Positions 10,639-44,927 of a stretch of 64,000 bases of DNA are shown one piece after another. A program made the translations under genes and the position numbers. The number at the start of each line of letters is the position of its first letter. Within the stretch, counting starts at the first letter, position 1. The notes under the pieces were generated by a model, which did no database searches, was not told where the DNA came from, and was given only the letters and a program-made list of their open reading frames with translations. Origin of the DNA: Dasypus novemcinctus (lineage: Eukaryota; Chordata; Mammalia; Cingulata; Dasypodidae); assembly GCF_030445035.2 (NCBI RefSeq), contig NC_080678.1, positions 118,301,947 to 118,365,946 of the forward strand, written 5' to 3'.

Positions 10639-10825
10639 AGGAGTCAGCGTCCCTGGAGAAGGAGGGTTGTCGCAGGGTTTTTCAGGACCTCGTGGTGACG
10701 CGAGGCAGGACTTGAAGCTCGTCAGTGAGTCAAAACGGGCACGTCACCTGCTCATGGTTCAATTTGGTGGAGCTGTTCGTTTGAAGAACTTGATACGATG
10801 CATGTTTGTGTCCAAGAGACTGCAG
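10639..10825 (+). pseudogene. PIWI pseudogene exon (N-terminal region)
   Basis: The acceptor is 'gtatacag'. Reading gives ...CRRVFQDLVVTR, then a frame change at about 10702-10706 (+2 or -1), then QDLKLVSESK. This matches the PIWI block that ends in a Val-x-Glu-Ser-Lys motif. The exon then reads GAVRL...SKRLQ, where the family has its short strand before a conserved Trp. The expected donor after CAG at 10825 is AGCTTC, not GT, so the splice site is lost. Confidence 0.7.
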
Positions 10826-11275
10826 AGCTTCACGCCATCAGTGTAACCGGACTCCACCCTCACACTGCCCAGTTTTTGTGATAAAGTTCACTCTTCGCAG
10901 AAATGGACTCCCCGTTTTTCACTCTTTTCCTCTTATTCCCGATAAAATAGTTACCAAGTTCTTTGGTTGCACTGGTCTCTATAGCTGTCGACATGTCTAT
11001 ATTTAATGTACAACACTGTTAAATACCTGGACCCTTCCCTGCCCCTTGCCATAGCCCAGGGCTGCAGAGTTTTGTTTTGATCTACTTCTGTTGTTTTATC
11101 TCCTTGGTTCACCTAACTTTGGCTCTTAATAGTAATAGTGCAGTGTTTGAAGTGTCTTGGGTCCAATTATTTGCTTGGTTGTTTGATGACTGAAACATGG
11201 CTCAGTTTCTCAGGTTCCAAAGGAAGCGTAGTAAAGCTGTTTGCAAACCATTTCTGACTGACGTCTTACCCCCAG

Positions 11276-11425
11276 TGGGTTGTTTATAAGTACAGCATTA
11301 AATTCAATCCAGACCCTGTTGCTGGAAATCTCTGAGACACTTTACTTCTTCAACATGAAGCAGATATGGGAAGGTGCCATATTTTTGATGGAGAAACTTT
11401 GTTATTACCTCAAGTACTACAAAAG
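11276..11425 (+). pseudogene. PIWI pseudogene exon with premature TGA
   Basis: The acceptor is 'cttacccccag'. It translates as WVVYKYSIKFNPDP... and then TLLLQHEADMGRCHIFDG, matching the family block of W-x-L-Y-Q-Y followed by ALLFQH and FDG. An in-frame TGA at 11333-11335 replaces an expected Arg, consistent with CGA to TGA decay. The exon end is uncertain: the expected junction after AAG at 11425 has no GT. Confidence 0.8.
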
Positions 11426-11502
11426 AGGCTTAAGTAATATTATTTGACATGTTCTTCATGTTCTCTTTCCAATTTTTTTTTCACTTTTTTTTTTTTTACG
11501 TT

Positions 11503-12180
11503 TTGAAAGATACTTTGATTACATAAATGTTATAGAGAACATATAAGGGATTCCCATATGCTCTGCTCCCCACACCTCCCACATTTTCCCACATTAGCAA
11601 CATCTTTCATCAGTGTGGTACATTCATTGTAGTTGACAAACACATTTTGGAGCATTACCACTAGGCATGGATTATAGTTTACATTGTGTTTACACTCTCT
11701 CCCATTGGACTCTGTAGGATATGGCTGGATATATAATGGTTTATCTGTCATTGAAATGTCATTCGGGATGACTCCCAAGTCCTGAAAATGCCCCCCTGTT
11801 ATATCTGCTTTTCCCTCTCCCTATCCCCAGAACATCCATGGGTCACTGCCTCCACAACGGTATTTCTTCCATTGATAAACTCACAATAAATCTATAGTAG
11901 AAAACTAGTAAGTTTATTTTAATCCCTAGTTCATTTCCCAGTTCTAGGACTCTGGGATGGTGATGCCCACTCCACCATTAATTGAGGGGGCTTCAATCCC
12001 ACACATCCGATGGAAGGGACTCTCTTGCTCGCGGTTGTATCTCTTTCCAGTTTGTTTTCTTTTTGTTATGCAGAACTTCCACTGCTTCTATGTAACAGTT
12101 TGTGGAGATGTCCCAAGGACGCCACTGCTCATACGACTTGTCATAAAACTCGTTATCATGTTTGATGGTGGCTGATATTC
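11503..12180 (-). repeat. L1 3'-end fragment, antisense
   Basis: Begins on the plus strand with a T-rich tract and 'catatgctctgctccccaca', then follows the same order of landmarks as the antisense L1 3' segment at 25290-26115 (a 'catt...ttggtgaat/gttgacaaa' block, a 'ctgggatggtgatgcccact' block, a 'gagggggctt' block). There is no ORF. Confidence 0.6.
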
Positions 12181-12551
12181 TCTAGTGCCTCTAATTTTAG
12201 TGCTTCTAATTTTAATGCTTAAACTGAATTCTAATATAAGGAGAAAAATTTACATTGTAAGTGGCACAATATGTTTCTAAAATACTAATGCAGGTCTGAA
12301 TAAATTATTTTGTAATTTTATTTCTGGCTCACTCTAAATTTTCAGCAAAAAACATCATTTGGAGAAGGAATGGTAATTTTCTCCGATCAATTTCCATGTT
12401 AATTAACCAAAGGAATGTTTCACAGGATCTTGTTGAAGCCAAAAATATATCCATTTGAATGTTTAATTCTGACGCCTCTGTTTTGTGTTGTGAACCACAT
12501 TTTCCACTAGTATCTTTGTGAGAAAGATGACTCCAGCTTCGGTGGTGATTT

Positions 12552-13018
12552 TGTTGTGGAATTTAAGAGAAGTTCAATTAATTGAGTATAGAGAGGCCAG
12601 GACTCAGGAATGATTTTGAGAAGGAAAAAAATGGTTTATTGACGGCCGGCCGGACTCGGGAGTTTTCTGTTTGAATCCCGAGCCCGGAACAAGATTTTCA
12701 AACGTCTTTTATACAGAGAGGAAAGGCCAAATCGTCCCTTTGTTTCAGTTCTCAATAGGCTTCAATTAGCATATATCTCTTCCACATCTTAGGTAAGCTT
12801 TTAGCAAGGACTCCAGACATTTTAGATAAGCCTTGGTTTTTGCATTTCCCCTAAATACTTAAAGTTTATAGCCCTTGCTTTGTTAAACATTTCCTGGGAC
12901 TGGAGCCTGCTGGTCCCTAAGAGCAGGACTGCAGCCTCTTACCGTTTCACACCCACAAGTCAAACAACTTAAGTTATCTCTGAAGAGACAAAGAGCCTTC
13001 CACCCATAGCCCACATCA
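12552..13018 (-). repeat. 3' LTR of the young element
   Basis: On the minus strand it begins TGATGTGGGC and ends TCCACAACA. It carries TATAAAAG (complement at 12706-12713) and AATAAA (complement at 12635-12640), so U3, R and U5 can be placed. Confidence 0.93.
12635..12640 (-). terminator. LTR polyadenylation signal (AATAAA)
   Basis: AATAAA on the minus strand lies about 70 bases after the TATA box of the same LTR. This is the expected end signal for element transcripts, and it would be antisense to the PIWI gene. Confidence 0.7.
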
Positions 13019-13030
13019 TTCCCCCCCTTT
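13019..13030 (-). other. Polypurine tract of the young element
   Basis: The minus strand reads AAAGGGGGGGAA directly before the 3' LTR, the position of the plus-strand primer in retroviral reverse transcription. Confidence 0.85.
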
Positions 13031-15316
13031 GTCAAAGTTTACTTGCTAAGCTTTGGCATAATTATTGTTGTAGCTATGAGGTGGATGACTGTTTGTTGTC
13101 TTGACTGATTATTTATCAGTCTTTAGTACAGCATCAAGGACCGTTTTTAGAAGTTTAGAACTTTTCATTCTGGACAGCAGAATCTTGGGCAGGGGCCTCC
13201 CGCAGTTATTCTGCTGCCACTGGCACTCACGTGGATTTCCAGTCAGGTTCCAGATCCATCTATTACTTTTATTTTACTCTTAAAGAGTTTACACCTTTAA
13301 TTTAAAAGGGGTGCTGAAGGGAGACGATCTCTTTTCTGTAACTGCTTCCTGCTGGCCATGGGCTGTAGTCATTGCCTAATAAGGTGTAAAAACTCTTTAA
13401 TTTATTCTAACTGGAGGAAGATGGATCTGGCATTCTGTACGAAGTTGGATGAAGTTTTCATATGGTTAATAAGATGTTCACTCTGAAAGAAACAAACTTA
13501 ATTAAAAATTTGGAATACCCGTTTTTAAAAGAGGACACATTGGATTACAGAGATAGACAAGATTAGATGCCTATAAAGATGGCATTCCTTAAAAGCTGGT
13601 GGGAACAGCATATATATTCTTTTTTAAGTTATCCATCTTTAGAGAGAAATTGCAACAGACACTTAGCTTTGTCTGAAGACACATTCCAAGCTGTTCAATG
13701 ATTGACACTCATTCGCTCTGTCAGATGCTCCTGGTGAACTGGCACTCCTTGGGCAACTGGCTTCACTCAGGATTAGAACACTAATTTGGAAATACTCTTA
13801 GTTTTCACCTGTGGGAGTGATCAGAACTACAGAATAAAGATTTTTACACCTTGGTTTTCATTGTACAATTTCTAGCAATTTTGACTTGTTCAATAGGTGA
13901 CTCACCATCAGCAAGCAAGCCTCACTTTTGCTAACTGAGACTGGCTGAGACTGCCACCTTATTCTATAGACATGTTATTAACTGTTTAGAAAATGATTTT
14001 ACCAGGAATTTAACATGTCTAATATACTTCTGCACTTGATCCAAAATAGAAAAGATAACATTTCAATTATTAGGCATATATTTAGTACAGGATAAAAGTA
14101 CAGCACTTAATATTAACTAATGTATTACTTAATGCATAAGGATTCAGAGTTGCCATTATTAGTTTTGAGTTTCAGGTTTGTAATACTTTACATGTTATCT
14201 CTCCATGAGAGCAGGCCATAATGCCAATTGTGCTCAAGTTTTACTTACAGTCTCCTGGTATCATGGCTCCACTCAGCATGTTCTTCAACGCAGTGAGCAA
14301 GTTGCAGCATCCTTCCAGTATTCCAGAGATTTTCCAGTATTCTACTAGCCTGGTGCATAGTGCTCTCTGGCACCATGGAACAGTGCCAGTCTGGAGGCGA
14401 TATCCATTGTACACTTGGCTGTACCGAGTCATTATTGGCTGCAGGAGCTTGAAACTGCAATATAGTTTCCATCGACTTCAGGAGCAGAACCAGAGACTGA
14501 TATAGCACATATTTTTAATTGAGGGGTCAGTGACCAGCCTAGCCAATAACTCACATGGAGAGGCCACCTGTAATGTATACAAGGCCTGGTTCGAATGCAC
14601 AAGAGTTTGACAATGTTAAAGTTTATTCCTTGTTTTATATATATTTTAAACAACTTAACGCAATACATATATCAAATGACTATTTACTTACACAATTTTA
14701 CTATGAAGATAACAGTAGGTACTTTACTTTAGTAATAGAGGAAAAATACTTTTCATTGTTAGAATGAAAACAGAATATTTCCAATAGAATCAAGACAACT
14801 TTTTATTACCATTTACTTAAATGTGTATTTTGCAGTGGCCTTCAGACAGGTTTATTATCATGAAGTTATTTCTGCTACCAATACCAATCTAAGTTTCTTT
14901 AGTTAACAATGACTTCTACAACTAGAATTATTTAAACATTTTCAGTTTGGAAGATGTTTTACAAACTCTTTATAATTGACTATAACCGCATTGACTAGAC
15001 ACCTCATGTTTAAATAAACTTACTAAATTACAATTACCAATGAAAGAAATTTACTCTCTATTTAAGAGAGCCTATCTACAATCTTTTCCCTTTAGCCTAA
15101 TTTCACCAATGTGAACTTACAATTTTCACTTACAATTTTCATTACTGTAAAGATTTTGTACATATGTTAATTTAGTTTATAAATTAACTATGGGAGATTA
15201 CACTCAAGTTAAATAAAATTGAAACCATTATAGTTTATGCAAGGAATGTTCTCTTTTTCCCTTACAGGAAGCTAAAAACTTCTTTTCTTTAAGTTATCAA
15301 AATTATTAAATTAAAA

Positions 15317-15376
15317 GCATACTGACTACCAGGTTTTAAAACACATGCATACTGACTACCAGGTTTTAAAACACAT
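15317..15376. repeat. Perfect 30-bp tandem duplication
   Basis: A 30-bp unit starting 'gcatactgactaccagg' occurs twice in direct succession with no difference. The matching region of the older provirus (about 24120-24160) has one diverged copy, so the duplication arose within the younger lineage. Confidence 0.9.
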
Positions 15377-15490
15377 TACACAATTACTTAATTTTTTAAA
15401 ATCATAACCCAGGAAAGATCTCTCCATAGTTTTTATGGACTTTCCTTTACTTACTGAAATTTGTTAATAGAGCCACTAATTACCTTATTT

Positions 15491-15960
15491 TGTTGGAAAG
15501 AAATCTTCTGGAAGAAAATAAGGCTCACCAGATTGTGGAGAAGAAAATACTTTATTCTCAATCTTGCAAGAAGGGGCGCAGAGCCAGATATGGCTGGTGC
15601 CCCGAACAAAGAAAAATGACACAATTTATACCCCTAAGCCTAGCATGCAAGCTCTTCCTGTTTTTCCATAGATTGGATACTTCAGAAGTTACAGCTTATC
15701 TGAGATTTAACTTTCCCACGCAAAAGTTTGATTTAACTGCTTCTTCTATCACATTCCAACCATTTTAGTTTTTACCTGCTCCCCCCCTTTGTCAAATAAG
15801 GAATAGAATTTAGTGCTGAAATGGCACCGACTTAGTTAGCTCCTTCTTGGGCATCCTTCCACTGCCCATAGGACTGGCCTAAACTGGTCTCCTCCACTGC
15901 TGTCCAACCCGGGAGTGGGAGACTGAGGCAGCAGGCCGCCAGGTTACATCAACATTTTTC
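15491..15960 (-). mobile_element. Nested LTR and flanking piece from a second ERV family
   Basis: 15491-15753 is bounded by TG...CA, starting 'tgttggaaag' and ending 'ctatcaca'. On the minus strand it carries a TATAAATTG-like box and GAATAAAG, so it looks like a short LTR. A polypurine complement (cccccccttt) lies close by at 15782, followed by further unrelated sequence to about 15960. The segment has no counterpart in the older provirus and differs from the host element's own LTR, so it is a nested or captured fragment. Confidence 0.55.
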
Positions 15961-18900
15961 TTCTGTGAAAATTAACCTAATCTTTGTTTTGTTTTTGTTT
16001 TTTTTTTTTCCAATTTATGGCTGACAAAGGTTTAAACTGGGAAATTACCAGGCAAACTGATTCTTAATTCCCTAGCCTAGTAGATAGGTTTAATCTGCCA
16101 CACCTAGTCTTGCCTTAAAAGCTCTTGCAAAGAGGAGGCCCTTTCCCAATTGTTTCCATAATCAGATTTCTATGACTTTTTCATCCTGCTTAGTTCAATT
16201 TGGGCTTTAAGAATATTTATAAATATAACTGCATATTTAACCTCAACAATTTGAGCAAATAGGCAGACATGAATAGTTTGGCACAACAACATGACTTTAG
16301 TTACTTTAAACTTTTCAAAGACTTTTGAAACTCTTCTTAATTTGCACTATGACCATGCAGTTTACCACAAGAATTTTCTTTCTTACTTAATGGATTGTAA
16401 TAACCAAAATGTTCTCAATGCCTTAGCACCATTTTGTTTTAGAACTTTATATTTTACCTTGAAATTAGCAGAATTTTGGATAAGCAACAAGATTAGTTTT
16501 ATATATATTTACTGAGGCTATTTGAAGCCTCAGGGAGACAGACTGCTTTCTCTCATGAATTGCCACTCTTAGGAACACTGACCGTCAAGGCAGGAGACTT
16601 CTCCCCCTCCACCCCCCTTTTTGATTTTGGAGATAATAAAACTCCAGTGGCCATTTAACCTTATTCTATCAGGCAGCAATTTATTTAGTTTACACTTGAA
16701 TTCATGAGAGAAAGGGTTACTAATACCAGAAGAGGAGACAGTGATGTCCCAGCTCTTCTCAATTATGAAATAACCACAGGCAAAGGCAAAGGGCGAGGTT
16801 AGGCCTGAAGCAACCATAAACAAAGGAAAGGTTAGTGTAGAATTTACACTTAAATAATAGTTTCAGGCTAAATTCACCCAGCTATAATCTCAGTTATTGT
16901 CTTTCCACTGTTTTACAATATAAATGCATTTATAAATGATTTTAACTCTTAGTTACAGTTTTTATTAATTTTTTTTAAAACCTATTAATTTTATAACACC
17001 TTTAAATACCTTTCATTCAACTTATAACATATTAAATGAACTTAACCATTACTTTAATTTTTCCTTTAAAGTGAAAGAATAAATCTCTTGCAGTTAGTTT
17101 GAAATAAAAGGCTACTTTTCAGGATTTGATTTCTAGAACATAAAATGTTCTTTTAAAAGAGGTAAGACTCTTCTTCAAACATTGAGGATATGATGAGGTT
17201 AAAGCACAAGAAGCTATTGATAAATGATTTTCTTTATATATTGATCTTACTCAATTTAATCATAAAAATTTCCCTTCCACAAACCTTCTACACTTTCAGT
17301 ATTCATTCAGGTTCTGTCCCACACTCTACTCTTTCCAATAATCAATCATTTTATCTTAGGACAAAATCATCTTCTGTTTCCTTAACAATAAAAACACATT
17401 CCATATATCCCACATACTGAGTTACCAGGCAAACTTCTTACAACATATAATTGCCATTAATACTAAACAAGTTTGTTAAAATAATGAACTTTTCTTCACT
17501 TTAAATACTTAGTAGCATGTAATACCAGAAACAGTTTTTTTGGAAGTAAGTTGGCAGGGGAGATTGGCTGCCGAATAAGTTTGTTATAAAATTGCCTTTT
17601 ATTATTATTATTATCAATTCAGTTTTGTTAAATAATGACTTTCTGCAATTAGCCACTTAAATACCTTAAACAATGCTTTGTAAAACTTTTATATTTATAC
17701 CCTTAACACAAATTTTACCTTCACAGAATATTCTCTTACTTAAGGTTACTACAATACCTTCTAAGAACCTGAGCAGAATGCAAACGTATTTTGGCTTTGA
17801 CACCCTAAGGAGGGAACTTTACTGCATTTATTCTGATTCTGCTTTTCACCTCCTTCACTCCCCCCCTTCCAGGCAGTCGGGTGCACAACAAACAGGAATG
17901 CGGCTTATGAATAGAAGGGTGGACTCACTGGAAAGGGGCAAGCCGCTCCCCCCTTTCCAGCTTTCAGCCAAAATGGGCAGACAGAACCTACTCAAATTTG
18001 GCAACTCTCCCAGGGACCCAGCCACCCTGACTGGGACATCCCCAACAAACTTGGGTGCGTGGCGCGGACACAGATGGCCTCCAAGCCCCGGCAAAGGGCC
18101 AGACCAGAGACAAGACAGCAGAGCATGTACAAACATCTAGAGTCCGCAAACATCCAGACTCCTCAGCTTTTGCCCCAGAATCATTTCACCCCCTTGCCAA
18201 TGGCAAGGGAGGGCTCCAGCTCAGCTGTAATTCCACTCTACATAAGGACACAACTCCAACACTAGCCTTGAGCTGACACAGACAGAAGCACAAAGGTCAC
18301 TAATCTGACTCACAAGTTTATATATTTATTTTCACCACGGCTGCCCCCACAGCCATCACAAACCTCAGAACACTTAACATTTGGTATAAAGCAAATTCAT
18401 TCACAAATTAGCACCATAACAAAAGATTTCAGCTAGACTTTTCCACTGTTTAAACTTTACACCCAGACCAAGCTCCACCAGAAAAGCCGATCCATTTTCC
18501 TGTAACCAAGTTTTGTTTTCCTTAATCTAGACCAATTTCCAGGATATTAGGACTCGAACCTATAAATACCCTTCCTATTAAAATCGAGACTCCACTCCTT
18601 TAGTGGATATAAGACCAGTACCAGATTCTAACATGCAGTTAGACAAACCCAAAACACCAGGGCTTTTCCCCGGTTTTCCTCCTTTTCCCAAGCCTAGAGA
18701 GAACGGCTTCCCCCCAGCCTTCTGGGGCTACTAGGGTTCTCTCGGGAGGTGATCAGCCTCCCCTTCCTAGCAATTAAAGCTAGGGCCTTCCAGACTCTGC
18801 TCACCCGGGGAGTCTTACCTTCTTCCCTGTTCGGAGCTCTTTTTCGTTCCCAGAATCTTTCTCTTCAGACCTTCCATTGCCCTCGATTTTTGTCGGGAAG

Positions 18901-19039
18901 ATTCTGGTGGAGCCCACATCTTTTCTGGATTAAATTTAATCCAGGGGCGCCCAGATTTGGGGTTCACCCGAGTCCTCCCGGCTTCCTCGGGGATTTGGAA
19001 GGGGCAGCAAAATGCTACCGTCTCTGGCCTTCATTTATT

Positions 19040-19057
19040 ATCCCTTCGTGGTTGCCA
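19040..19057 (-). other. Primer-binding site, tRNA-Arg(CCG)-like
   Basis: The minus strand reads TGGCAACCACGAAGGGAT, four bases from the 5' LTR. It complements the 3' end of mammalian tRNA-Arg(CCG) with about one mismatch in the first 17 bases. The tRNA sequence is from general knowledge. Confidence 0.75.
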
Positions 19058-19061
19058 TTAA

Positions 19062-19528
19062 TGTTGTGGAATTTAAGAGAAGTTCAATTAATTGAGTATA
19101 GAGAGGCCAGGACTCAGGAATGATTTTGAGAAGGAAAAAAATGGTTTATTGACGGCCGGCCGGACTCGGGAGTTTTCTGTTTGAATCCCGAGCCCGGAAC
19201 AAGATTTTCAAACGTCTTTTATACAGAGAGGAAAGGCCAAATCGTCCCTTTGTTTCAGTTCTCAATAGGCTTCAATTAGCATATATCTCTTCCACATCTT
19301 AGGTAAGCTTTTAGCAAGGACTCCAGACATTTTAGATAAGCCTTGGTTTTTGCATTTCCCCTAAATACTTAAAGTTTATAGCCCTTGCTTTGTTAAACAT
19401 TTCCTGGGACTGGAGCCTGCTGGTCCCTAAGAGCAGGACTGCAGCCTCTTACCGTTTCACACCCACAAGTCAAACAACTTAAGTTATCTCTGAAGAGACA
19501 AAGAGCCTTCCACCCATAGCCCACATCA
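19062..19528 (-). repeat. 5' LTR of the young element
   Basis: Identical by eye to 12552-13018 at a constant offset of 6510 bases. Confidence 0.93.
19216..19223 (-). promoter_or_regulatory. LTR TATA box
   Basis: TATAAAAG on the minus strand in the 5' LTR would direct transcription leftward through the element, antisense to the PIWI pseudogene. Confidence 0.65.
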
Positions 19529-19628
19529 ATTTGGATAGCCCACTGACATAATGATTTATTTCTTATGCAAGGAAGCTTAGTTTTCTTAGATGAGTCACTG
19601 GACGTTATTTTTTAAATTTTAATCTCAG

Positions 19629-19750
19629 GAATTGGAAGTGGTCAGCCAGACCAGACACCATCAGAATGTGAAGATTACCATCAAATTCTCCAAAGAGCTC
19701 TCGCCTACCTCACCAGATTGCCTCTGCTATTACAATGTTCACTTCAGAAG
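19629..19750 (+). pseudogene. PIWI pseudogene exon (start of PAZ region)
   Basis: The acceptor is 'tttaatctcag' and the donor AG|GTGAGC, both sound. The frame is open: VVSQTRHHQNVKITIKF, then KELSPTSPDCLCYYNVHFRR. This matches the PIWIL1/3 block (R-I-T-I ... EL-P-TSP-CLQ-YN-I-FRR). It is the best-preserved upstream exon and lies just 100 bases beyond the young LTR element. Confidence 0.92.
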
Positions 19751-20429
19751 GTGAGCTAGTGACAGTTAGTGCCTGAGAGTTTTGTTTTACTGTGTAGCAG
19801 AGATGTTGATTGCTGTCACTTGCTTTTAGCATTTCACATCTTTTTATTTATTTATGTTTCATTTTATTTTTTAAAATTTTTCATTTCACATCTTGATGGT
19901 CTCCAGCTATGCATAGAGTGAAGGGTCTTTGAAATGAAATGACTGTTGAGCCTCGCCTAGAGACATGCAAGTTCAGGCCTCCCCCACACTGTTGTTTTCC
20001 CACTTTCCCTTCCCATGCCAGACTTCCCTCTAGAAAGAATAATAAACCCTGACCCTTCATATTTGTGCATCCTTCTCCCTGCAGTGAGTACATCTGTTTT
20101 CTCTTCTACATTTCACTCTGCTGATCAAATTAAAACTGGGGCACTGAGTCCAAAAAGACGTTTTGGTTTTCTTTGGGCATGGAGGACATCATGATGGTAT
20201 TTCCACCTTATTTGGTTTTATTATCTGAAAAGGGACCAGAAAATTTGGTCAGAAGTGAACATACCATTCAGGTCACAATACAGTTCCCTTGTACATGACT
20301 ATCAGGCACGTCATGTTCATGCAGAGTTGAAACACAGTCGGATTTCTCCAAGTGTATTCTCTTATATGCTGCTGGATGCTTAATAATAGTCACTATTTTT
20401 TCAATGAAATCAATTCTTTTAATTTCTAG

Positions 20430-20989
20430 AACTTTGAGGATAATGAATTTACAACAAGTTGTCCACAACTCTTGTTATAGAATTTGAGAGAGGTTCAATT
20501 ATTTGTGTATAGAGAGGTCAGGACTCAGGAATGATTTTGAGAAGGAAAAATGGTTTATTGATGGCCGGCTGGACTCAGGAGCTTTCTGTTTGAATCCCAA
20601 GCCCAGAACAAGATTTTTGAATCCCTTTTATATGAGAGGAAAGGTCAAATGGTCCCTTTGTTTCAGTTCTCAATAGGTTTCAATGAGCATATGTATCTTC
20701 CACATCTTAGGTAAGCTTTTAGCATGGACTTCAGACATTCTAAGTAAGCTTTTAGCATATTTAGTTTGCATTTCCCCTAAATACTTAAAGTTTATAGACC
20801 TTGCATTGTTAAACTGTTTCCTGGGACTGGAGTCCTTGCCATTGTTACCAAGGGCAGGACTGCAGCCTCTTACCTTCACACCCAAAAGTCAGAGAGCTTA
20901 GGTTATCTCTGAAGAGACAAAGAGCTTCCCACCCATAGCCCACATCACTCTTAAAACACAAATGACCCGACTAAGATTCCTGATCATCG
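20430..20989 (+). pseudogene. PIWI pseudogene PAZ exon split by an LTR
   Basis: The first half, 20430-20472, reads LRIMNLQQVVHNS. The second half, 20952-20989, reads NTNDPTKIPDHR. Joined across the LTR they align residue for residue with the family's MNLQQ ... NPNDP ... IP-HR block, with a TAA (20952-20954) where Tyr is expected. The acceptor 'aatttctag' and the donor CG|GTTTGT remain. Both splice phases fit the neighbouring exons, so the reading is secure. Confidence 0.92.
20473..20947 (-). mobile_element. Solo LTR inserted inside a PIWI exon
   Basis: A 475-bp LTR of the same family as the young element, with scattered differences, running TGTTATAGAA ... CCCACATCA on the plus strand. It is flanked by a perfect 4-bp duplication, CTCT (20469-20472 and 20948-20951). 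The flanks are two halves of one PIWI exon. A solo LTR forms when the two LTRs of a provirus recombine. Confidence 0.95.
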
Positions 20990-21221
20990 GTTTGTATATG
21001 GTGGAATGTTTCACCTCCTGTAGACTTAAGAAGGTTACTCCAATTTTAAGGTTTATGATTCGCAAGTGCTGGCTTTTTAAATGGTATCCACCAACCAAGA
21101 AAAATTAAGCTTTCAGTTTGATGTAAATTTAAAATAAAGTGTGAGATTCACCTTTAAATATCCCAGCACGATCACCATAAACTGAACTCTGATACCCTCA
21201 TGAACCAATTCTCTCTGGCAG

Positions 21222-21363
21222 GTTGGAGCTCTGGCTTGCTTATACAACTTCTATTCTTCAATATGAAAACAGCATTCCTCCTGTGCTGATGTGAATTATA
21301 AACTCCTCCAGCAAGAAACTGTCCTTGACTTGAGAGTCAGACTGTATCAACAAACCAGAAGGG
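21222..21363 (+). pseudogene. PIWI pseudogene PAZ exon, frameshifted and cut by a provirus
   Basis: The acceptor is 'ctctctggcag'. It reads LELWLAYTTSILQYENSI, matching the family's WPGF-TTSI-QYE-S block, then needs a one-base shift (21274-21283) to continue as ADVNYKLLQQETVLDL and YQQT. The phase joins correctly with the preceding exon (CG|G). The recognisable exon ends at the first base of the old provirus, so its donor or remaining codons are lost or displaced. Confidence 0.88.
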
Positions 21364-21785
21364 TGCTGTGGAAGTTGAGAGGTTCAATAATTGCACATGG
21401 AAGGCCAGGGCTCAGTAATAATTTTGGGAAGGCAAAAATTTATTTATGACTGGCTTGGGAGCTTCTCTGTCCAAAAACCTAAGCCCCAAATAGGATTTTT
21501 GGGTTCTTTTCCTACAAAGGAAGAGCCAAATGGTCCTTTGTTTGAGTTCTCAATAACTTGAGTTAACACTTATTTCCCACATTCCAGGTAGGCTTGAATT
21601 AACATATTTAGTTTGCATCATCCGTGAAAATTCAAAGTCTCTAGAGCTTACATTGTTAGTCAGTTTCCTGGGACTGGAGTGGTTGGCATCATTAGGAAAG
21701 GTGAAGCTCAGCCTTTCCTTGTCTGACACACACAGCCCCAGTTATTTACAAAGAGATGTGCAGCCCCCACCCAGGGCTCCTGTCA
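21364..21785 (-). repeat. Diverged 3' LTR of the old provirus
   Basis: Shares with the young LTR the blocks 'ggccagg.ctca', 'tgggactggag' and 'aatactt/aaattcaaagt', but has many substitutions and indels. It ends 'gctcctgtca' before the polypurine complement. Confidence 0.85.
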
Positions 21786-32800: not shown

Positions 32801-32870
32801 ACCTGCTCGTGGCTCTCACTGAGGTCCCTCACGAGAATGGCAGCCATGCCCCCTTGCTTTTCCTGTGCAG
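29859..32870. other. PIWI pseudogene intron; expected exon(s) not found
   Basis: The family has coding sequence between the QQT block and the QEI-D block (including a KYNNKTY motif and VDDIDW). I found no convincing remnant here. Open frames at 30534-31526 show no domain. Confidence 0.4.
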
Positions 32871-32997
32871 CACTACCATCAAGAGATCATGGATCCCAGG
32901 CAGCCACCCTTCATCAGCCAGGTCAAGTGGAAGAAGAGCCAGAGGAACTACCCGAGAGAATCTGTGCTGCTGATTCCTGAGCTCTTCCCTTCGACAG
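32871..32997 (+). pseudogene. PIWI pseudogene exon (end of PAZ/linker)
   Basis: The acceptor is 'ttcctgtgcag' and the donor ACAG|GTACTG. The frame is open: HYHQEIMDPRQPPFISQ, then ESVLLIPELFPSTG. This matches the family's QYNQEITDL-QP-LVSQ ... LIPEL--LTG. The Cys-Tyr-Leu of the usual LIPELCYLTG is replaced by Phe-Pro-Ser. Confidence 0.9.
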
Positions 32998-33216
32998 GTA
33001 CTGCTGGGCCATGTGGTCTTTCCACAGTGAGCCCCTCTGAGCCCCACAGGCCTGTGGCTGGAGACATGTGCTTCTGGCAGCACCTCACCATACCCCTGGA
33101 ACTAGATGCCCAGTCTTGCTGGGTTCCTCCTCTCCCAGATGCCACTGTTTAGTCTTCTCTGACATAAACGTAGCCTTGCTTGTTCAGATAGACATTTTGA
33201 TTTTCTTTTCTAAAAG

Positions 33217-33334
33217 TTTAACAGACAAGAGGTGTAAGGATTATAGGATGATGAAAGATTTGGTGGTCCATATGAGGTTGGATCCAGAAAAGAGGCAACC
33301 TGAGTTTTAAAAAATTCATCATTACTACACAAAA
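33217..33334 (+). pseudogene. PIWI pseudogene exon with premature TAA
   Basis: Reads LTDKRCKDYRMMKDLVVHMR, then LDPEKRQPEF, then TAA (33308-33310), then KIHHYYTK before the donor GTAAGT. It matches the family's LTDK ... MKDLAVHTRL-PE-RQ block. Compared with the previous exon's phase, one base is missing at the acceptor (aaaag|TTTAACAG). Confidence 0.9.
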
Positions 33335-33693
33335 GTAAGTATTCCTTCTCTGGCTGTACGTACCAAACTCAAGGCCTGTCTAGATCCTCGGCATTTCAGC
33401 TTCTTCTACTAGAAAATGACAATTGGGAAGAAAATGACATTTTTTGTCCAACTCTAGTTATTGCATCATTAGAATATTGAAAGAGGTTAAGAGGGGCAAG
33501 AAAGAAATGCTCGCAAGTGCTTACAGGAACAGTGGTGCAAAACCGAGACTGCGCTGGAGTTGGACGGTATTTGTCTGCAGCATTTCCACAGCAGCAGCAG
33601 GCATGAGCGCCAGCTCAAAGGAAAGTCGACCTGCTTTTTGCAAATGATCGGAATGCTTCTTGCTTATTTTAATGAGATGTTTTCCATTTTCAG

Positions 33694-33808
33694 AGATGAG
33701 TGTGTGCAAAGGGAGCTTCAATGCTGTGATCTGAAATTTGATAGCAAATTTCTGTCCTTCTCAGGGAGAGTTTTGAAATCAGTAAAAATCATCCAAGGAG
33801 AAAGAATG
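33694..33808 (+). pseudogene. PIWI pseudogene exon (linker 2)
   Basis: Reads DECVQRELQCCDLKFDSKF, then LSFSGRVLKSVKIIQGERM, with donor GTAAGA. It closely matches the family's VQREL--WGL-FDSNLLSFSGR-L---KI-QG block. Its phase at the acceptor does not continue that of the preceding exon. Confidence 0.92.
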
Positions 33809-34253
33809 GTAAGAGCATTTCAAGATTGTTGTGTCAATTTGGGGGCAAATGAATTATGACGCCAGAGGAATGGACTCGGTCCTGCTATAATTGTGACCAC
33901 TGTGTCTTCTCAAATTAGCCATCCCTTCCCCATGAGGGAACAAACAGGCTTGCAATAAGGATGTTTAGAAAATGCCTGGCACATGGTAAGCTTTGTATTA
34001 TGGCTTTATCACTTAATAATGTGGGCATTCTTTCAAGGCATAATAATCCAAATTTATCCATGAAGACACAAATTCATAGAATCAATCTAAAAGACTGTAA
34101 GCCGTGGGAGATTTCCAATTTTACTAACTCATATTTTTAAGGAAAGTGAGTAATTCAGTCAGCATTTGAGCTTGTCATTTGTAGTATTTCAGTAGGAAGT
34201 CGCAGTGAGTAAAACATTTAAGGTTTATAATGTGGTTTGGAATTCTTTTCCAG

Positions 34254-34438
34254 CTTGACTCCCATTCACAACTTGCAGACTGGTCAAAAGAAATAGAAGT
34301 GGCTCTTACTCAGGACAAAGTCCCTCCATGACTGGCCTTTGCTGTGCACCAGGAAAAATCAGAAAGCTGCCATGTCTTGAGCACGGAGTCTGCAGAAAGT
34401 GACAAAAAACATGGGCATAGCTATGAAAAGTCCAAAAT
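34254..34438 (+). pseudogene. PIWI pseudogene exon with premature TGA
   Basis: The acceptor is 'cttttccag'. Starts LDSHSQLADWSKEIE, the conserved ADWSKE block. An in-frame TGA (34329-34331) lies where the family has Trp in its L-x-NWLL segment. The remainder is weakly similar and ends before the donor GTAAGT in the correct phase for the next exon. Confidence 0.87.
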
Positions 34439-34899
34439 GTAAGTATGTAGAGCAGAAATCCATTCCAGCTTAAAAATTGGTTCCTGGCAATCCAGCAGCA
34501 GAGGAACTGAAATATTAATTTGTAGGAATGAGTCTCCTTCTTTGACAAAACCCTTTAAAATTTTGCAAACAAAAAGTCTTTTGTTTTGTCTCCCTTAGAC
34601 ATATGTTGAACCTTGATTTTGTGAACTATGGTTTGTGGCTAGTGGAATCCATGTTGAAGGAGGCTTCAGAAATAGCAACTTGATCTGGAATTGGCATGGG
34701 TAGTAATAAGAACTAGCTCCCAATCATGTTTTCAGAAAATTGAACTTGTTTTTTCAAAAACAAAATTTTCCCTAGGATGCTTGTCTCAGCATTGTATCTT
34801 ATGCCATTTTCTAATTCATTTCATGGGCTATGTAAAATTCTTGTTATATGTTTTGTTCTACGTTATCTTATGTATATAGGTGATATACGTATTTTATAG

Positions 34900-34972
34900 G
34901 GTTGAGGTGGGTGATACAACTGAATCCTATTTAACGGTCTTAGATGAACATGCTTCATCAAAAATACAGATG
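34900..34972 (+). pseudogene. PIWI pseudogene exon (MID region)
   Basis: The acceptor is 'attttatag' and the donor ATG|GTACAT. Reads VEVGDTTESYLTVLDEHASS, then KIQM, matching the family's VDDRT-AYLRVLQQ-V--DTQI. Both junction phases fit the neighbouring exons. Confidence 0.85.
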
Positions 34973-36475
34973 GTACATATTGTCTTGATATATATCCATC
35001 TTCAGCAGTTGCGTAGTTCTAAAGCTGCATACTCATGCATTTTAGAAGCTAGAGTGTTGCCAAGTGGTACTTAAACCACCCCAGGAAAGTGAATTTACCT
35101 CTCTCATGTAGCTGAACTCAGGCAGCTGCAGTTTAGCTATTTTTTAATATCATGTCATGCTATTCTCTGAGGTTTATAGACTTAGAATTGTCACAGAAGT
35201 CTGTAAATTTCTATGGTGTTTTTAGATTTCTAAGTGCTGTGGGTGATGGTAATCTCCAAATGTGATTGTTAGTGTTCTCTCCCTACTTATAACTCACTAC
35301 GTCTATGACCCATCTCCTCCAGCATATCTCTTCCAAAGCAGTATTTCTCTTGGAATCTTCCCTTTCCTTTCCCTTAGCCAGTGCCTTAGACCTAGTTGTC
35401 ATTCTGGGATGGGAATTCCTTCACCAACTGTTCCTTCAGTTCTTTCTCCCAACACATCTCTTTCTTCTGCTTCCTCCAGCATGCAGTTTAGGAGCTTGTT
35501 CTTTCTCGATCACGCAACCAAGGTGTTTGTCCTATTGTCTTGTACCTAAAACCTAGACTTCTCTCTCCTTCACAATTTCCACTAAGGATGACTTTTCAGG
35601 CTATGCTGAAGAATTCCTTGTACTTATCATTCTTACATGAACTGCCTCGCTTTCATAATCCTGTTCTCTTCAAATGCTGTGGCTCGCTTCCTATTTCTTG
35701 ATCACATGCCATCTTATATTGTCATCTGGTGTTGTGGCCTTAGATCCTCAGAGCAGAGAAATCTTTTGTTGGGAGCTCTCACAGCATGGCATTTTACATG
35801 TGAGAATCTGTGAATGGGATGGAGTTTGGTCAGTGTTTGGATTTCAACTCATTATCATAACGGGAATTTCTTTGCTTGTTTAGCATCTGCCTAAAAAATT
35901 AAGGTCTGCCTTTTAATTTGGGGATTTCAGAAAACAAACCAACCCACCTACCCACCCTTTGTTTCACCTCTTGAAGGGGAACTTGACTAGTTTACCTCCT
36001 GGTACAATAGACTCTTCTCTTCATCAAGTCATCTCCTTTTACATATTCTAAGGGTGTAGGGTAGATGGGGAGAGGACTAGCCCCAGAATCTTTCTTCTTA
36101 TGTTCTCCAGAGATTGAGGGATGACCAGGAGGACAGGGACTGAACCCTCACTCCCAAAATCAGAGAATTTCCTAGTCTAATAAAAGATGCCTCCCCAAAG
36201 GGTCCTGTGAGCATCATGAGGTGATAAGAAACATTTTGAAGAATTTCCTTTTGAATCAGGAACAAGCCCTTTCTCCTCTACTGCCCAGGCCTTGAGACCA
36301 GTGAAGGTTTGATACCCTCCTTTGTTGCTTATAAACAGGCAGTTTCCAGAACTCTCCAGCTTGTTCTGTGGTTAGTACCTAACTCAGTAGGTTGTAGAAG
36401 TAATGAACTGAGTCCAATGAAATGCTTGGTAAGTACTTGACTGATCATGGTTGTTCAGTAAATGGTGAATATTCT
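34973..36475. other. PIWI pseudogene intron, nothing recognised
   Basis: Ordinary intronic sequence. I see no exon, RNA gene or clear repeat. Confidence 0.5.
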
Positions 36476-36895
36476 TATTTTTTTTAAAGATTTATTTATT
36501 TATTTATTTCTCTCCCCTTTCCCCCAGCCCCAGTTGTCTGTTCTCTGTGTCTATTTGCTGTGTCTTCTTCTTTGTCCACTTCTGTTGTTGTCACCATCAT
36601 GGGAATCTGTGTTTCTTTTTATTGCATCATCTTGTGTCAGCTTTCTGTGTGTGTGGCACCATTCCTGGGCCATACACACTTTCTTTCACACTGGGTGGCT
36701 CTCCTTATGGGGCACACTCCTTGCATGTGGCTCTCCCCTATGCAGGGACAACCCTGCATGGCAGGGCACTCCTTGCACACATCAACGCTGTGCATGGGCG
36801 AGCTCCACACAGATCAAGGAGGCCCGGGGTTTGATTCATGGAGCTCCCATGTGGAAGACGGATGCCCTAACCACTGGGCCAAATCTGCCACCTTA
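36476..36895 (-). repeat. DAS SINE, antisense
   Basis: Complete antisense DAS SINE; the flanks 'tgaatattctta' (about 36464) and 'tgaatatgctta' (about 36896) look like its target duplication. Confidence 0.9.
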
Positions 36896-37242: not shown

Positions 37243-37417
37243 GTCATCTGCATGCTGTCCAACAACAGGGAAGACAAGTATGATAGCATAAAAAAATACT
37301 TGAGTACCGACTGCCGCATTCTGAGCCAATGCTTGCTGGTGCGGACCACAGAGAGATCACAGATGCCAATGAGCATTGCTATCAAGATGGGAGGAGAGCT
37401 CTGGAAGGTGGACACAG
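37243..37417 (+). pseudogene. PIWI pseudogene exon (MID, guide 5'-end pocket)
   Basis: The acceptor is 'ttgctttcaag'. Reads [20 protein letters not shown], then [15 protein letters not shown], then [15 protein letters not shown]. The Y-x-x-IKK-YL ... Q pocket residues that hold the guide 5' end are still visible. Between MSIA and KMGGEL the family has about nine more residues (TKIALQMNC-like), so about 27 bases were deleted in frame. Confidence 0.93.
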
Positions 37418-37444
37418 GTGTATGTTGGATTTCGTTGCCTACTC

Positions 37445-37940: not shown

Positions 37941-38043
37941 CTAAAGCAAGCAATGTTTATTGGTATCGATTGTTTCCATGATATTGAAAATTGACAGAAG
38001 TCAATTGCAGGGTTGTGTCAAGCTTGAATGAAGATTTAACACA
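37941..38043 (+). pseudogene. PIWI pseudogene exon with first catalytic Asp, then stop
   Basis: The acceptor is 'aaaatttaag'. Reads LKQAMFIGIDCFHDIEN, then TGA (37992-37994), then QKSIAGL and, after a further frame change, LNEDLTQ. The family has VGIDCYHD-T-GR-SIAGFVAS-N-G-TRW. The first Asp of the catalytic Asp-Glu-Asp-His set (37968-37970) is intact, but the slicer domain cannot be made. Confidence 0.93.
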
Positions 38044-39240: not shown

Positions 39241-40103
39241 AGAAGAACCGTTTTTATTTTGACAGATGATTAACTTGACCAGCCACCATATTCTCTGTCA
39301 AAATGAAAACCTTCTTTTGCTATGTTTTTCTGGGGGGGAATTAGAGAATGATATTGCAGTGATAAGGACAAATTAAGCTTTCATTCATTCAACAGATATT
39401 GTTGAGTACCATTTTCTAAATACTCAGATTGCAGTCGTTAATCTGTAGACCAAAAAAGCCTGCCCTTTCCTATGGAGCTTAAATTCTGGTGGAGAGGCAG
39501 GCAGACAAATGCACACAAGTGGTCAAGATGCACTGAAGTAAACTAAAACACAACAAGACAGTTGAAACTTGAGGGAAGTGTAGACTTTTTCTTGACATAT
39601 TGTGAGGCTGTTACAATAGCTGTCACCATTCCCAAGAGAGCTGCTTTCTCAAAGCAGATGGTTGTAGATGAACCAGAGTGTGAGAACTCCATCTCCAGGA
39701 GGAGGCCCCCAGGAGTTCTGGCTCTTTGTTTGTTGTTGTTGTTGCGTTCTCCCATAGGGGAAACTGCACAGCCATGCATAGTGACAGTGGTGTAATCTGT
39801 AGTATTGCTGTTAAATGCCCCCTTATCCTTTTGCACACATCAATGTTTTGTAAAAATGTTTGATGTCATAGGGGACCAAGACTTTGGCGAGCTCTGTAGG
39901 GGGTTATAGAATTGATCTTTAATAAGATCCTCAATTCCGATTGTGATGTTGATGTTATAGATTCATTCAGAAGGGAAGTAAGATTCCAAAGCTCTTGTTT
40001 TCCAAACCAATCACTTATAATCTCAGCGCACATGGTACCCTCGATGTGTTTTCCAAAAATCAGGGCAAAAACTCGTGGATGGGCTGAAGACCTGCTTGTG
40101 TGG

Positions 40104-40363: not shown

Positions 40364-41289
40364 AGGTTTAGGCTGTGAAAGACCCTAAGTGCTGTAGTGT
40401 CAACAATGAGCCTCAAATTTGTTGAAACTACCAGTGGTTACTGTCTATTAACACAGGGGTCTGGTTTCTTTTCAGCTGCCATGAAGGCCTGGGCTAAGAG
40501 CCCTGCCATCTGTTATTATCATGTAATGGGATAGGGTGGGAGATGGGCAGCTTCAAGCATTGCTAGATTATGAAATACCGCAGCTCGACCTCCTTAAAAC
40601 TCGTTGCTAAGTCCTTTGAGTAAGTATCTACATTGCAAAGGGCCACCTTTATGTGTATGTGTGCATGTGTGTATGTGAGATCTGCACTTGAGTCTTTAAC
40701 ATTTCCAAAGCAAAACTAAAAACCAAAATATATATATATATTTCCAAAGGAATTCCAAGTGTTAACTATGAGGACCAGGAACTTGACACCAATGGTGGGC
40801 TTCAGGCAAGGGGAGGAGAGGAGACCCTACTGCTTTGACTTTGAGCCCCACACCAGAGTCAGAGGGAAAAAAGGCAGAATTGGAATATTGGAGGAGCAGA
40901 TATTTCTTTCCTTCCAGGGTAAACATTTTGCCATTTTCAATCTCCATTCCAGCCCTGAAGTAGGAAGGCTTGGTGGCCTCAGATTTCCACAAGATCCATG
41001 ATGTTAGCCTGGCCAGTGGCTTGCACTCCTCTCCCCTTCACCCAGAGTTTTGCAGTTACCAGGAGGGGGAGCCCTCCCAGCTGGCTTCTCTAGCCCCATC
41101 TGTGTGTCTTTTGGCCCTGCAGTCCTGCCTGAATAGCAGGAATAGCTCCTAAGGCTGGAGGAAAGGACCTTTCCCCTGGGGAGTGGGTGGCTGGCTCTGA
41201 GTAAATACCTCTTTATTTACATCTTGAAATAGACACATGAACCTAAAACAGTGATATTGGGTACCTAGAGTGCTGCTGTCCCCATATGA

Positions 41290-41375: not shown

Positions 41376-42699
41376 TGCAAACTCTTTTAGGAGATATGTA
41401 TATGATCTTTCACATATTGAATGCTTTCAAGATAAGACTGAGTAGACACAGTAGCACTTATCATAATTTTTTAAAGTACCAAACTAACTGTAATTGTGAT
41501 GAAGAAATGTATCAACATCAGATTTTTTATTGAGTCTCAAAGAAGAATTCAAATTCCACTTCCAGGCATGATTGCCCAGAGGGAATGATAAGCCCTTTTG
41601 TAGTTTTATTTTCATTTTTTAAAGATCTGATTGTATAATTTTCTTAACTTACTTCAGTTTAGCAAAGTCACTTAATTCAAATAACTTCTCCTTAAAAAGT
41701 ATTTTTGTTCTTTACACCAATTTGAGCTTATATTATTACTTTTACACTGTGGGTCTTTATTTGGACATAGGAATTGTGCTTGGTGGTCTGGCCAGATAGG
41801 TTTCTTAAACTCACTTTCATAGGAGTCTGTGACCCAAAAACATTGTTTTCTAGTGGGGCCCTAAATTGTATGTTACGATTATAGGAGAGAGTAAATTGTG
41901 TTTTGTATTGACACTCCTCAATCATCAAAGTCAAGTCTTAGTAAATATAACCTAAAAATCAAAGTATTTAATTAACACACTAAGGAGGTTTATTCTTTTT
42001 AAATGTTTTCTTGCATTTCTAGGGGACAATATCTAAACTAAACCAAAGCCCACTTTCTCTTATGTGCAAATTTTCTGCATGTAATACCTATCTCCTCTGA
42101 ACCGGGATGATTCAATACCAAAGTAATATTCACAGTTATTTGGCAACAAAATACAGAGTTTAATTTTTAAAAATCAGGACTGGATAATATGGACATCATG
42201 AAATAATTGAAAATGATATTCATAAATTGCTTTGTCTTTTTTTTGAGGAAACAACTCTTAGAGGGAAGCTGCAGGCAATACAATATAGGGCTAAACACAC
42301 AAGTTTCAGGTAAAGTGTTAGAAATAGTTTATATACGTTTGCAAGTGAAACAAGTTACAAGAGAGAAAACACACTTACCCTAATAAAAAGAACTAAACAT
42401 GAAAAAAAATAGTTTATATAAATGAATTTTTAAATGATTATATATGTATAATGGAACAGAACATAAGAGAACTGATAAATGTTGAATAGAAAGATAACTT
42501 TGTAATTGAATATCTAGCAATGATAAAGATGGTAGAAGTGAGAAAATTAGATAGAAGGGTTAAAGGGCAGATTAGACACAAAAGAACAGAAATAATTAAC
42601 TGCAAAATCCATTCAAAGAAATTCACAGAACTCAGTGCAGAGTCATGGAGAGATGGAAGGTATGAATACACATTATCGAAATGTAAAACTAAGTGAGCA

Positions 42700-44000
42700 G
42701 ATTTGCTATAGGTTGAGTAGAAGTTCAAAAAGGTGGAGCTAGCAGGAAGGGGGTCAATATTAAAGAGAGAATTGCTGAAAACCTGACTCCTTAGATTCAG
42801 GAATAATAGAACCTAAGCAAGAACAATTAAAATAAATCCATACCTAGACACATAGTGAAACATCAAAATATCCGAGACAGGAGATTTTAAAATCAGAAGA
42901 GGAAAATATATTATTGATAAACAATAAAAATTCCATTCAGCCATAGAAAGCAGAAGACATTGAAATAATATCCTCAATATGCTAACAAGTAACTCTCACC
43001 CTAAAGTTTGGTACCCAGTTAAACTATCATTCAAAGGTGAGAGTGAAATAAAACAAGATTTAGATAGTTACACATATTGTATATGTCCATCAGACCCTCC
43101 CTGAAATATAGCAACCATAAAGTATATATTTAGGGGAAAGGAAAGTGAACAAATAAAGAAGGAATGAGATTCAAGAAGCAATGCTATCAAAAATATTTGG
43201 GAGTTTAAAACACTGACCTTATAAATGTCAAATTTGGGGAGTATGTAAGAACTAGGTAGATATAAAATATTGGACATAAACACCATTTGCATGGGAAAAT
43301 AGGGATCAGGGCTAAAGAATCCAGAGATCCTCAGTTGCTAGGTAGAATGGTTAAATTTAAGTTTAAATGATTCACTTCAGACTTGTTGACTATGTAAATT
43401 AAAATATATGGGAAACCATGAAGTGAAATAAAACTTGACTTCCATCTCAATAGAGTGGGGGGAGGGATAAATGAAAATGAAAGAAAGGCAGAAATATTGA
43501 TCAATCTAGTAAAAGACAGGAAAGGATTAAGCAAAACACAGATAAAACATAAATTTAAAGAACAAAATAATAGGGTCCACATAAAATAAACCCGATAATT
43601 TAAACAGATTAACCTTGCCTCTTAAATCAGAACACAGGTTGGAGAAAAATCAGTAAGTTAGTTGTTCTTTAGAAGAAACACTCCTAATAAATCTTAAAAG
43701 TATGATAAAATTGGGGGAAAAAAGGGATGGAAAAATACACCAGAATATTAACCCAAAATTCTGGCCTTGGATATATTGATATAAAGAAATAAGTGAAACT
43801 AACAGTTCACCAGAAAGAGAGCAATTCTGAATTTGTAGGTGCACAACCTAAGCTCCAATCTGGCTATATACTTTAGAGAAAGACTTGCGTTTTGTGCCCA
43901 AGAAAGCACCCATTAAAATCTTCCTCATGTCTTTAATCTGGAAAAAAAATTAGGAGGAAATTATCAACAAGAGAATGGATAATGAATGTTGAAGCCTGTA
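42700..44000 (+). repeat. Old L1 / half-L1 (ORF1-type) remnant
   Basis: A-rich sequence with recognisable ORF1-region wording, for example 'gagagaattgctgaaaacct' near 42765, and a block near 42950-43050 about mis-spelled 'accctaaagtttggtaccca', 'aaactatcattcaaaggtga'. There are many stops. Confidence 0.6.
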
Positions 44001-44141
44001 TATGATGGGGAATTACTCAACAGGCAATGGAATGGACTAGGAACACTTTATTATGTAATTCTGGATAATAATATCTATCCAACAATATGGGTAAATCTTT
44101 AAACTAGAGTAAATAAAAGTTCTTTTGACATATACAACATA

Positions 44142-44168
44142 CAACATATATATATACACACACACAAT
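44142..44168. repeat. TA/CA microsatellite
   Basis: Short 'atatatatatacacacacacac'-type run; the Tyr/Val-rich minus-strand frames across it are spurious. Confidence 0.85.
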
Positions 44169-44488
44169 ATAAATATAAATTTTTGAAATGTATGTTGTTG
44201 AGAGATAATATGTAGGTAATAGCAAATGTGCTAATTTTATTTTTCTGTCTAGACATCTGTGTATACCTTATTAGTCTAAAGCACCTGACAGTACCATCCC
44301 AATGGTTTAAATATCCTTTATGGAGTTGTGTCATTGTTTACCTGTTCAACAGACTGTCATTTAAGGAAACACTTTCTGCTTGGGGAATGCGTTTCTGTTG
44401 AGTAACAGACTAAATGTTTTCAGAGCCTCCACTCACTACGTGCTTTTCTTCTACAATGAGCTGATTCTCATATGTTGTATAATTCCAG

Positions 44489-44635
44489 GTATGGTTTCTT
44501 CATTGTGAGTCAGCCTGTGAAACATGGGACTGTTACTCCCACACATTATAATGTCATCTATGACACTGTTTGCTTGACCCCAGACACAGTGAGCATTTGA
44601 CTTACAAGCTTTGCCACATGTATTATAACTTGCCA
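44489..44635 (+). pseudogene. PIWI pseudogene exon with one-base deletion
   Basis: Reads [20 protein letters not shown], then [12 protein letters not shown]. At 44583-44587 a base is missing, and the frame continues as [17 protein letters not shown] up to the donor GTAAGG. The match to the family's YDFFIVSQ ... [10 protein letters not shown] ... LTYKLCH-YYNWPG is unmistakable. Confidence 0.95.
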
Positions 44636-44810
44636 GTAAGGATCTTCTGATCCCGGTTTTCCTCCAGATCTGTAAAATGAATGGGTCAAACTTGCATGCC
44701 TATGTTTTAATCTGTGATGTGACAAATGTGAAAATGTAAATCTAGAGAAAATAGATGTAAATTAAATTTTTAAAAAAAGAAACTTCCTCTTACTTTTCTT
44801 CCTCCTACAG

Positions 44811-44927
44811 AGTGTGATTTGTGTTCCTGCACCTCGCCACTTTGCTCACAAACTGTCTTACCTCGTGGGTCACAGGATTCAGGCACAGCCACACAATTTA
44901 CTGTCAGAATGTCTCTATTACCTTTGA
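44811..44927 (+). pseudogene. PIWI pseudogene terminal exon
   Basis: The acceptor is 'cttcctcctacag'. Reads SVICVPAPRHFAHKLSYLVG, then HRIQAQPHNLLSECLYYL, then TGA (44925-44927). It retains the VPAP block, the catalytic His of AHK and the terminal Tyr-Tyr-Leu. No stop or frameshift occurs in this exon. Confidence 0.95.

Follow-up and report, generated by a model that had tools for sequence, protein, structure and literature searches.

A multiplied relic of the PIWI gene PIWIL3, most likely dead before it spread, in the nine-banded armadillo

Introduction

PIWIL3 helps to protect eggs from jumping DNA, and the subject of this report is a dead copy of the gene in the nine-banded armadillo (Dasypus novemcinctus). 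The copy lies in a stretch of 64,000 nucleotides (assembly GCF_030445035.2, contig NC_080678.1, positions 118,301,947 to 118,365,946 of the forward strand) that we call the window. According to one report, nearly every sequenced mammal other than mouse and rat has PIWIL3 (PMC10964541). Another states that its flanks vary among placentals, that it was not found in armadillo or elephant, and that its loss was inferred in the ancestor of Atlantogenata (PMC8574217). In hamsters, PIWIL3-null females have reduced fertility, and 29-nt PIWI-interacting RNAs (piRNAs) of PIWIL1 partly compensate (PMC10465502); these null animals, together with the mouse, indicate that animals can live without PIWIL3.

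Like the mouse-like rodents and Atlantogenata of the earlier survey, the armadillo is a mammal without a working PIWIL3; the difference is that the survey listed PIWIL3 as absent from the armadillo (PMC8574217), whereas here its relic is present and multiplied. The original prediction, a model's note made from the letters of the window, did not know whether the loss had been reported. The absence is already in print in that source, and no report of an armadillo PIWIL3 relic or of its amplification was found in the open-licence literature; what appears to be new here is the relic itself and its multiplication. We hold, with a probability of roughly 85%, that PIWIL3 is dead in the armadillo lineage, that it most likely died before it was duplicated, and that its copies are passengers of recurrent segmental duplication.

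Remains of a PIWI Gene in the Window

Exon remnants were mapped by tblastn, first with PIWIL1 and PIWIL3 as probe and then with 14 reference proteins, and splice sites were judged by eye; the labels e3 to e21 are our own numbering, set against PIWIL1. Between positions 8,969 and 44,927 the forward strand holds what is left of a PIWI gene with introns, in the form of 18 collinear exon remnants (Table 1). For 15 of the 18, the best E-values in single-exon searches run from 4e-5 down to 3e-22; e3, e4 and e7 are individually weak (E 0.95-3.7) and were accepted on their order and expected place. The remnants are confirmed as genuine, far beyond chance. Large introns are retained and many AG and GT sites survive, giving the structure of a PIWIL1/PIWIL3-type gene, and a processed pseudogene is ruled out by the kept introns. 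The original prediction had placed fourteen ordered remnants, with introns and many intact splice sites, at 10,639 to 44,927. Order, introns and splice sites hold good, and the predicted end is exactly the normal stop codon; the count was too low, and e3 lies outside the predicted start.

No open reading frame with PAZ, MID and PIWI domains is left. Seven premature in-frame stops (Table 1) and three frameshifts (e8, e13 and e20, with perhaps a fourth in e4) break the gene, and tblastn did not find the first coding exon or exons, nor e9 (the exon of YNNKTYRVDDIDW), in the window. The predicted in-frame stops are real, though more numerous than the five claimed; several frameshifts and a lost donor had been called correctly, the donor being changed in e4 and not seen in e12. 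The claim that catalytic exons are missing fails: remnants with IDCFHD, WDRVGDG and the C-terminal histidine region, motifs that we take to be catalytic, are present but broken. The 1-base frameshift in e20 occurs in none of the 22 other e20 rows compared.

Table 1. Features of the window (positions counted from its first letter)
Feature	Position	Strand	Evidence and state
5' flank	1..8968		inner arm of head-to-head pair
PIWIL3 e3 remnant	8969..9082	+	weak tblastn match to horse PIWIL3 residues 47-84, E 0.95; AG acceptor and GTGAG donor; TGA stop 8996-8998
PIWIL3 e4 remnant	10643..10735	+	weak tblastn match in two frames; possible frameshift; donor GT altered
PIWIL3 e5 remnant	11204..11431	+	tblastn E 3e-22; TGA stops 11255 and 11333
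Young long terminal repeat (LTR) element	12552..19528		7 kb (6,977 bp), in the e5-e6 intron
PIWIL3 e6 remnant	19626..19751	+	E 2e-10; open; splice sites retained
PIWIL3 e7 remnant	20425..20478	+	weak, E 2.1, position in order; acceptor AG
PIWIL3 e8 remnant	21199..21392	+	E 5e-9; internal frameshift, common to the 107.5-Mb copy
PIWIL3 e10 remnant	32868..32999	+	E 3e-8; open; splice sites retained
PIWIL3 e11 remnant	33218..33334	+	E 3e-8; TAA stop 33308, not in the 107.5-Mb copy
PIWIL3 e12 remnant	33674..33817	+	E 2e-9; donor not seen
PIWIL3 e13 remnant	34257..34437	+	E 9e-8; frameshift; TGA stop 34378, common to the 107.5-Mb copy
PIWIL3 e14 remnant	34899..34973	+	E 4e-5; splice sites examined
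PIWIL3 e15 remnant	37243..37422	+	E 4e-16; 24-bp in-frame deletion
PIWIL3 e16 remnant	37941..38012	+	E 9e-7; IDCFHD motif present; TGA stop 37992
PIWIL3 e17 remnant	40033..40098	+	E 5e-6
PIWIL3 e18 remnant	40482..40610	+	E 2e-6; WDRVGDG; TAA stop 40524, present in the 107.5-Mb copy, absent in the 97.0-Mb copy
PIWIL3 e19 remnant	41481..41585	+	E 3e-7
PIWIL3 e20 remnant	44490..44635	+	E 1e-19 jointly with e21; 1-base frameshift
PIWIL3 e21 remnant	44811..44927	+	E 1e-6 alone; normal terminal stop codon 44,925-44,927
3' flank	44928..64000		same duplicated block; no gene recognised

Identity of the Remnant

By its phylogenetic placement the remnant belongs with PIWIL3, not with PIWIL1 or PIWIL4. 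We built a tree of 34 rows by quick search (17 PIWIL3 proteins, 13 PIWIL1 including the armadillo's own, 2 PIWIL4, an elephant-shrew protein named PIWIL3, and the remnant), with branch support from the Shimodaira-Hasegawa-like approximate likelihood ratio test. The remnant branches off next to the 17 PIWIL3 proteins sampled, as their sister, and all of these come from Boreoeutheria; support is 100 for the whole clade and 97 for the living PIWIL3 proteins without the remnant, whose terminal branch is long (0.58). In a second set of 28 rows, forcing the remnant together with four mammalian PIWIL1 proteins was rejected by the approximately unbiased (AU) test (p-AU 4e-5), and forcing it inside laurasiatherian PIWIL3 was not rejected (p-AU 0.29), so that its exact position within PIWIL3 is not fixed. 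The remnant shares exon order, introns and residues with the PIWIL3 (Piwi-like 3) of placental mammals and is basal to those sampled. It differs from them in that the window has no intact frame, and where they have a single gene the armadillo has at least 35 copies, broken or partial.

The alternative, that the remnant is an additional PIWIL1 copy that died, finds some support in summed tblastn bits: only two of ten PIWIL3 references (horse, 844; dog, 769) beat the best PIWIL1 (bear, 758), the remaining eight scoring below it at 520-688. Such raw scores mislead, however, because PIWIL3 evolves fast. The clade support and the AU test, which rules out a PIWIL1 duplicate, argue for PIWIL3, as does a protein search with the remnant, whose top matches are two rhinoceros PIWIL3 proteins (782 and 781 bits, against 693 for bear PIWIL1). 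We consider a PIWIL1 origin extremely improbable. Among columns invariant in 17 PIWIL3 and 10 PIWIL1 proteins, 29 of 153 are changed in the remnant; the same count in the 17 living PIWIL3 controls gives 0-10 of 174-187 (0-5.5%). Tree and disruptions thus agree with the predicted dead PIWIL3 in an armadillo.

Two reference names call for care. The PIWIL3 row from mandrill (P0001) is named 'Piwi-like protein 1' by its source, yet is 93% identical to the PIWIL3 probe. Conversely, 'piwi-like protein 3' of Rhynchocyon petersi (P0094) falls within PIWIL1 in the tree, probably a misannotation or a second PIWIL1, and therefore gives no evidence for PIWIL3 in Afrotheria.

Other PIWI Genes of the Armadillo

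A search of the assembly for the Piwi family gave 69 matches, on contigs that we designate C30, C42, C44, C25, C11, C4, C111 and C6, the last being that of the window. PIWIL1, which the original prediction had proposed to look for in intact form, looks intact on C30: the exon stretches matched contain no stop, with residues 469-531 outside the matches and one match crossing an intron. C42 carries PIWIL4, whose pieces match 'piwi-like protein 4 isoform X2 [Dasypus novemcinctus]' at 86% identity; the rough joining of exon pieces into the query probably explains why this value is not higher. The gene on C44, considered as an intact PIWIL3, proved to be PIWIL2, with a score of 179 bits for PIWIL2 and 68 for PIWIL1. 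Pieces fetched from C25 and C11 gave 24-48% or no match to PIWI references and are presumably AGO genes, and the match on C4 contains stops. Among the best-scoring candidates of the 69 Piwi-domain matches, the assembly yielded no intact PIWIL3; the lack of an intact ortholog among them agrees with a unitary pseudogene and is not proof of absence.

Copies and Duplicated Blocks

A genome search with e20-e21 returned 38 rows: 34 on C6, one on C111, one on C13 (73%) and two in PIWIL1. The 3' end of PIWIL3 is present in at least 35 copies, those on C6 spanning 40 Mb, which rules out the loss of a gene at a single locus. On C6, 27 of the places fall between 96.995 and 118.346 Mb and the other 7 between 131.325 and 137.308 Mb, with 19 on the plus and 15 on the minus strand. 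Exon 5 was found at eight places, of which six are as far from an e20 place as expected and two (97.07 and 115.99 Mb) are not; since e5 was detected at 6 of the 35 e20 places, most e20 copies are either 5'-truncated or diverged beyond detection.

Five large head-to-head pairs hold ten of the copies. Each pair consists of one form A and one form B (in three pairs a tree identified form A, in the other two its identity to the window did), with e20-e20 distances of 106,655 bp in the window's pair and 99,675, 99,705, 104,726 and 109,481 bp in the others. The flanks are multiplied as well. Positions 1000-1700 of the window have 16 long C6 matches (94-100%), 14 of which form 7 inverted pairs 12.1-12.7 kb apart; the other 24 rows among the 40 scored are short matches to repeats. 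Positions 62700-63400, 18 kb past the gene, have at least 40 copies (the best 40 of 91 candidates, 39 on C6 and one on C111), and what really drives the amplification may lie in this flank. Between 10 and 13 open reading frames of the 3' flank were tested, and none matched a Pfam family above the cut-off; one sub-threshold match to MUCL1 was taken as chance. As a whole, C6 from 96.7 to 137.9 Mb contains recurrent, partly palindromic duplicated blocks over about 40 Mb.

Copies that are largely an artefact of assembly, through false duplication or mixing of haplotypes, are highly unlikely. The copies at 110.884, 118.240 and 131.614 Mb are indeed identical over about 800 bp, as such an error would produce. 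Against it, the median pairwise identity of 23 copies is 96.4% and the lowest 91.7%, the copies lie in both orientations on a single 138-Mb contig, and a 7-kb insertion with its target repeat is found in the window copy alone of eight.

MAGE genes are X-linked, and 42 of 45 MAGE matches fall on C47, with three on C3 and C4 and none on C6. On this basis a location of the C6 copies on the X was rejected, and C6 is apparently an autosome, if C47 is the X. On C47 itself, 13 MAGE-family frames of 553-646 amino acids with near-equal scores occupy 354 kb at 18.278-18.632 Mb, a probable tandem array on the presumed X. The inverted arms, the recurrent duplication of blocks and the identity of about 90-100% are those of mammalian ampliconic palindromes and segmental duplications; the armadillo blocks differ in being apparently autosomal, in extending over 40 Mb and in carrying a dead PIWI gene.

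Order of Death and Spread

The 24-bp in-frame deletion in e15 is present in 20 of 20 rows (the window and 19 places) and in the copy at 131.3 Mb, hence in 21 of 21. The TGA stop in e16 is found in all 14 copies that retain this exon, e16 being absent from the stretch read in 6 of 20 rows, and is a stronger mark of early death than the in-frame deletion. From this pattern it appears most likely that PIWIL3 died before spreading on C6; the lesions are common to the copies read, and the same order would be expected of the others. Of the eight copies with e5, including the window, seven carry its first stop and five its second, and the 131.3-Mb copy lacks both; decay must have continued during the spread, because these stops are not in all copies. 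The original prediction would have been overturned by assembly errors or by a recent duplicate of an intact PIWIL3. Assembly errors are not supported, the lesions being common to copies that differ by several per cent, and the locus is a recent segmental duplicate, though not of an intact gene, as the other copies are broken.

Several points weigh against a death that preceded the spread. The copies were read in part only (e15 in 21 and e20 in 24 of 35), the window being the one read end to end. The most divergent copy on C6, at 131.3 Mb, has open e5 and e6, and its reading stopped short of e16; some lesions must therefore have arisen during the spread. As a still-living copy it is ruled out, its e20 and e21 being broken. 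The e15 deletion, being in frame, may precede the death of the gene, and gene conversion between copies could spread a lesion. What is more, e15 is open in 21 of 21 copies and e20 in 19 of 23 rows, a possible hint of constraint; the youth of the copies explains these open frames.

At 2.2e-9 substitutions per site and year, rough dating gives 43-45 million years for the decay of invariant residues, assuming full constraint before death, and about 10-20 million years for copies 92-96% alike.

The match on C13 (86282803-86283279) is an older relic. Over 897 columns, continuing past the end of the gene, the 1.3 kb read matches the window at 74% identity, and it has three stops in e21 and a damaged e20; none of these lesions was seen in the C6 copies. 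The relic is possibly either an ancient duplicate or PIWIL3's original locus. No convincing further exon was found at C13:86,288,200-86,292,199. As for neighbouring genes, none of 29 matches to the RUN domain (for synteny with SGSM1) lies near the C6 copies or C13:86.28 Mb, and a GGT1 probe gave no match.

Probable Passive Carriage versus a New Function

We propose that PIWIL3, the PIWI gene of oocytes, ceased to function in the lineage of the armadillo, most likely ahead of the C6 duplications. The stretch of C6 with the dead gene would then have formed an inverted head-to-head pair, the origin of forms A and B, and repeated duplication of whole pairs and of fragments would have led to the present copies on C6 and the one on C111. 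These would yield no normal PIWI protein and be carried passively, which is the simplest account because the flanks were multiplied along with the gene. The armadillo presumably manages without PIWIL3 by using PIWIL1.

On the other hand, the amplified relics might have acquired a new job in armadillo germ cells, as a source of piRNAs or small interfering RNAs (siRNAs) or of truncated PIWI fragments. The inverted pairs, the 35 copies and the open e15 and e20 frames would fit, and mouse oocytes have pseudogene-derived siRNAs (PMC13399003). Selection on the PIWI part is not needed, however, since the flanks were multiplied with it, and e5 is at its expected distance from so few e20 places; we regard a new job as very unlikely. 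That a dead PIWI gene, now a palindromic multi-copy locus, might through small RNAs or PIWI fragments act on the very germline silencing it once served is an extension that is also very unlikely. We therefore keep to passive carriage of a dead gene.

Loss History

The relic is evidence that the armadillo line still had PIWIL3 once it had split from Boreoeutheria. In place of 'not found' there is now positive evidence that the gene was once present in this line and died there. If its death postdates the split from Afrotheria, as the rough 43-45 million years suggests, a single ancestral loss would be wrong. Sloths, anteaters and Afrotheria now offer a way to test the timing. The search for proteins similar to the remnant gave no sloth or anteater PIWIL3 among the 51 matches listed, with both species in the database, which is weak evidence. 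As a natural knockout, the nine-banded armadillo offers a datable relic, and this relic draws attention to 40 Mb of duplication that is recurrent, in part palindromic and apparently autosomal.

A Young LTR Element and Other Repeats

The LTR element in the e5-e6 intron has two LTRs (12552-13018 and 19062-19528) of 467 bp each that are 100% identical, and is flanked by a 4-bp target repeat. Its insertion site is empty in all seven other e5 copies. Two of these match the window at 99.7% identity across 2.9 kb, and the element therefore most likely entered after these sister blocks had split off. The window's pair is 6.95-6.98 kb longer than the pairs at 110.9 and 131.5 Mb, the size of the element. 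The seven open reading frames tested matched no Pfam family at E 0.01, so the element is probably non-autonomous. A related LTR lies at 20472-20950.

A dispersed repeat of about 415 bp with a tRNA-like part, which we take to be typical of armadillos, occurs at 6174-6611, 29428-29844, 36468-36888 and 51320-51761, among other positions. A tRNA scan gave matches in the window at 3745-3816 and at 51344-51417, the latter inside one copy of this repeat.

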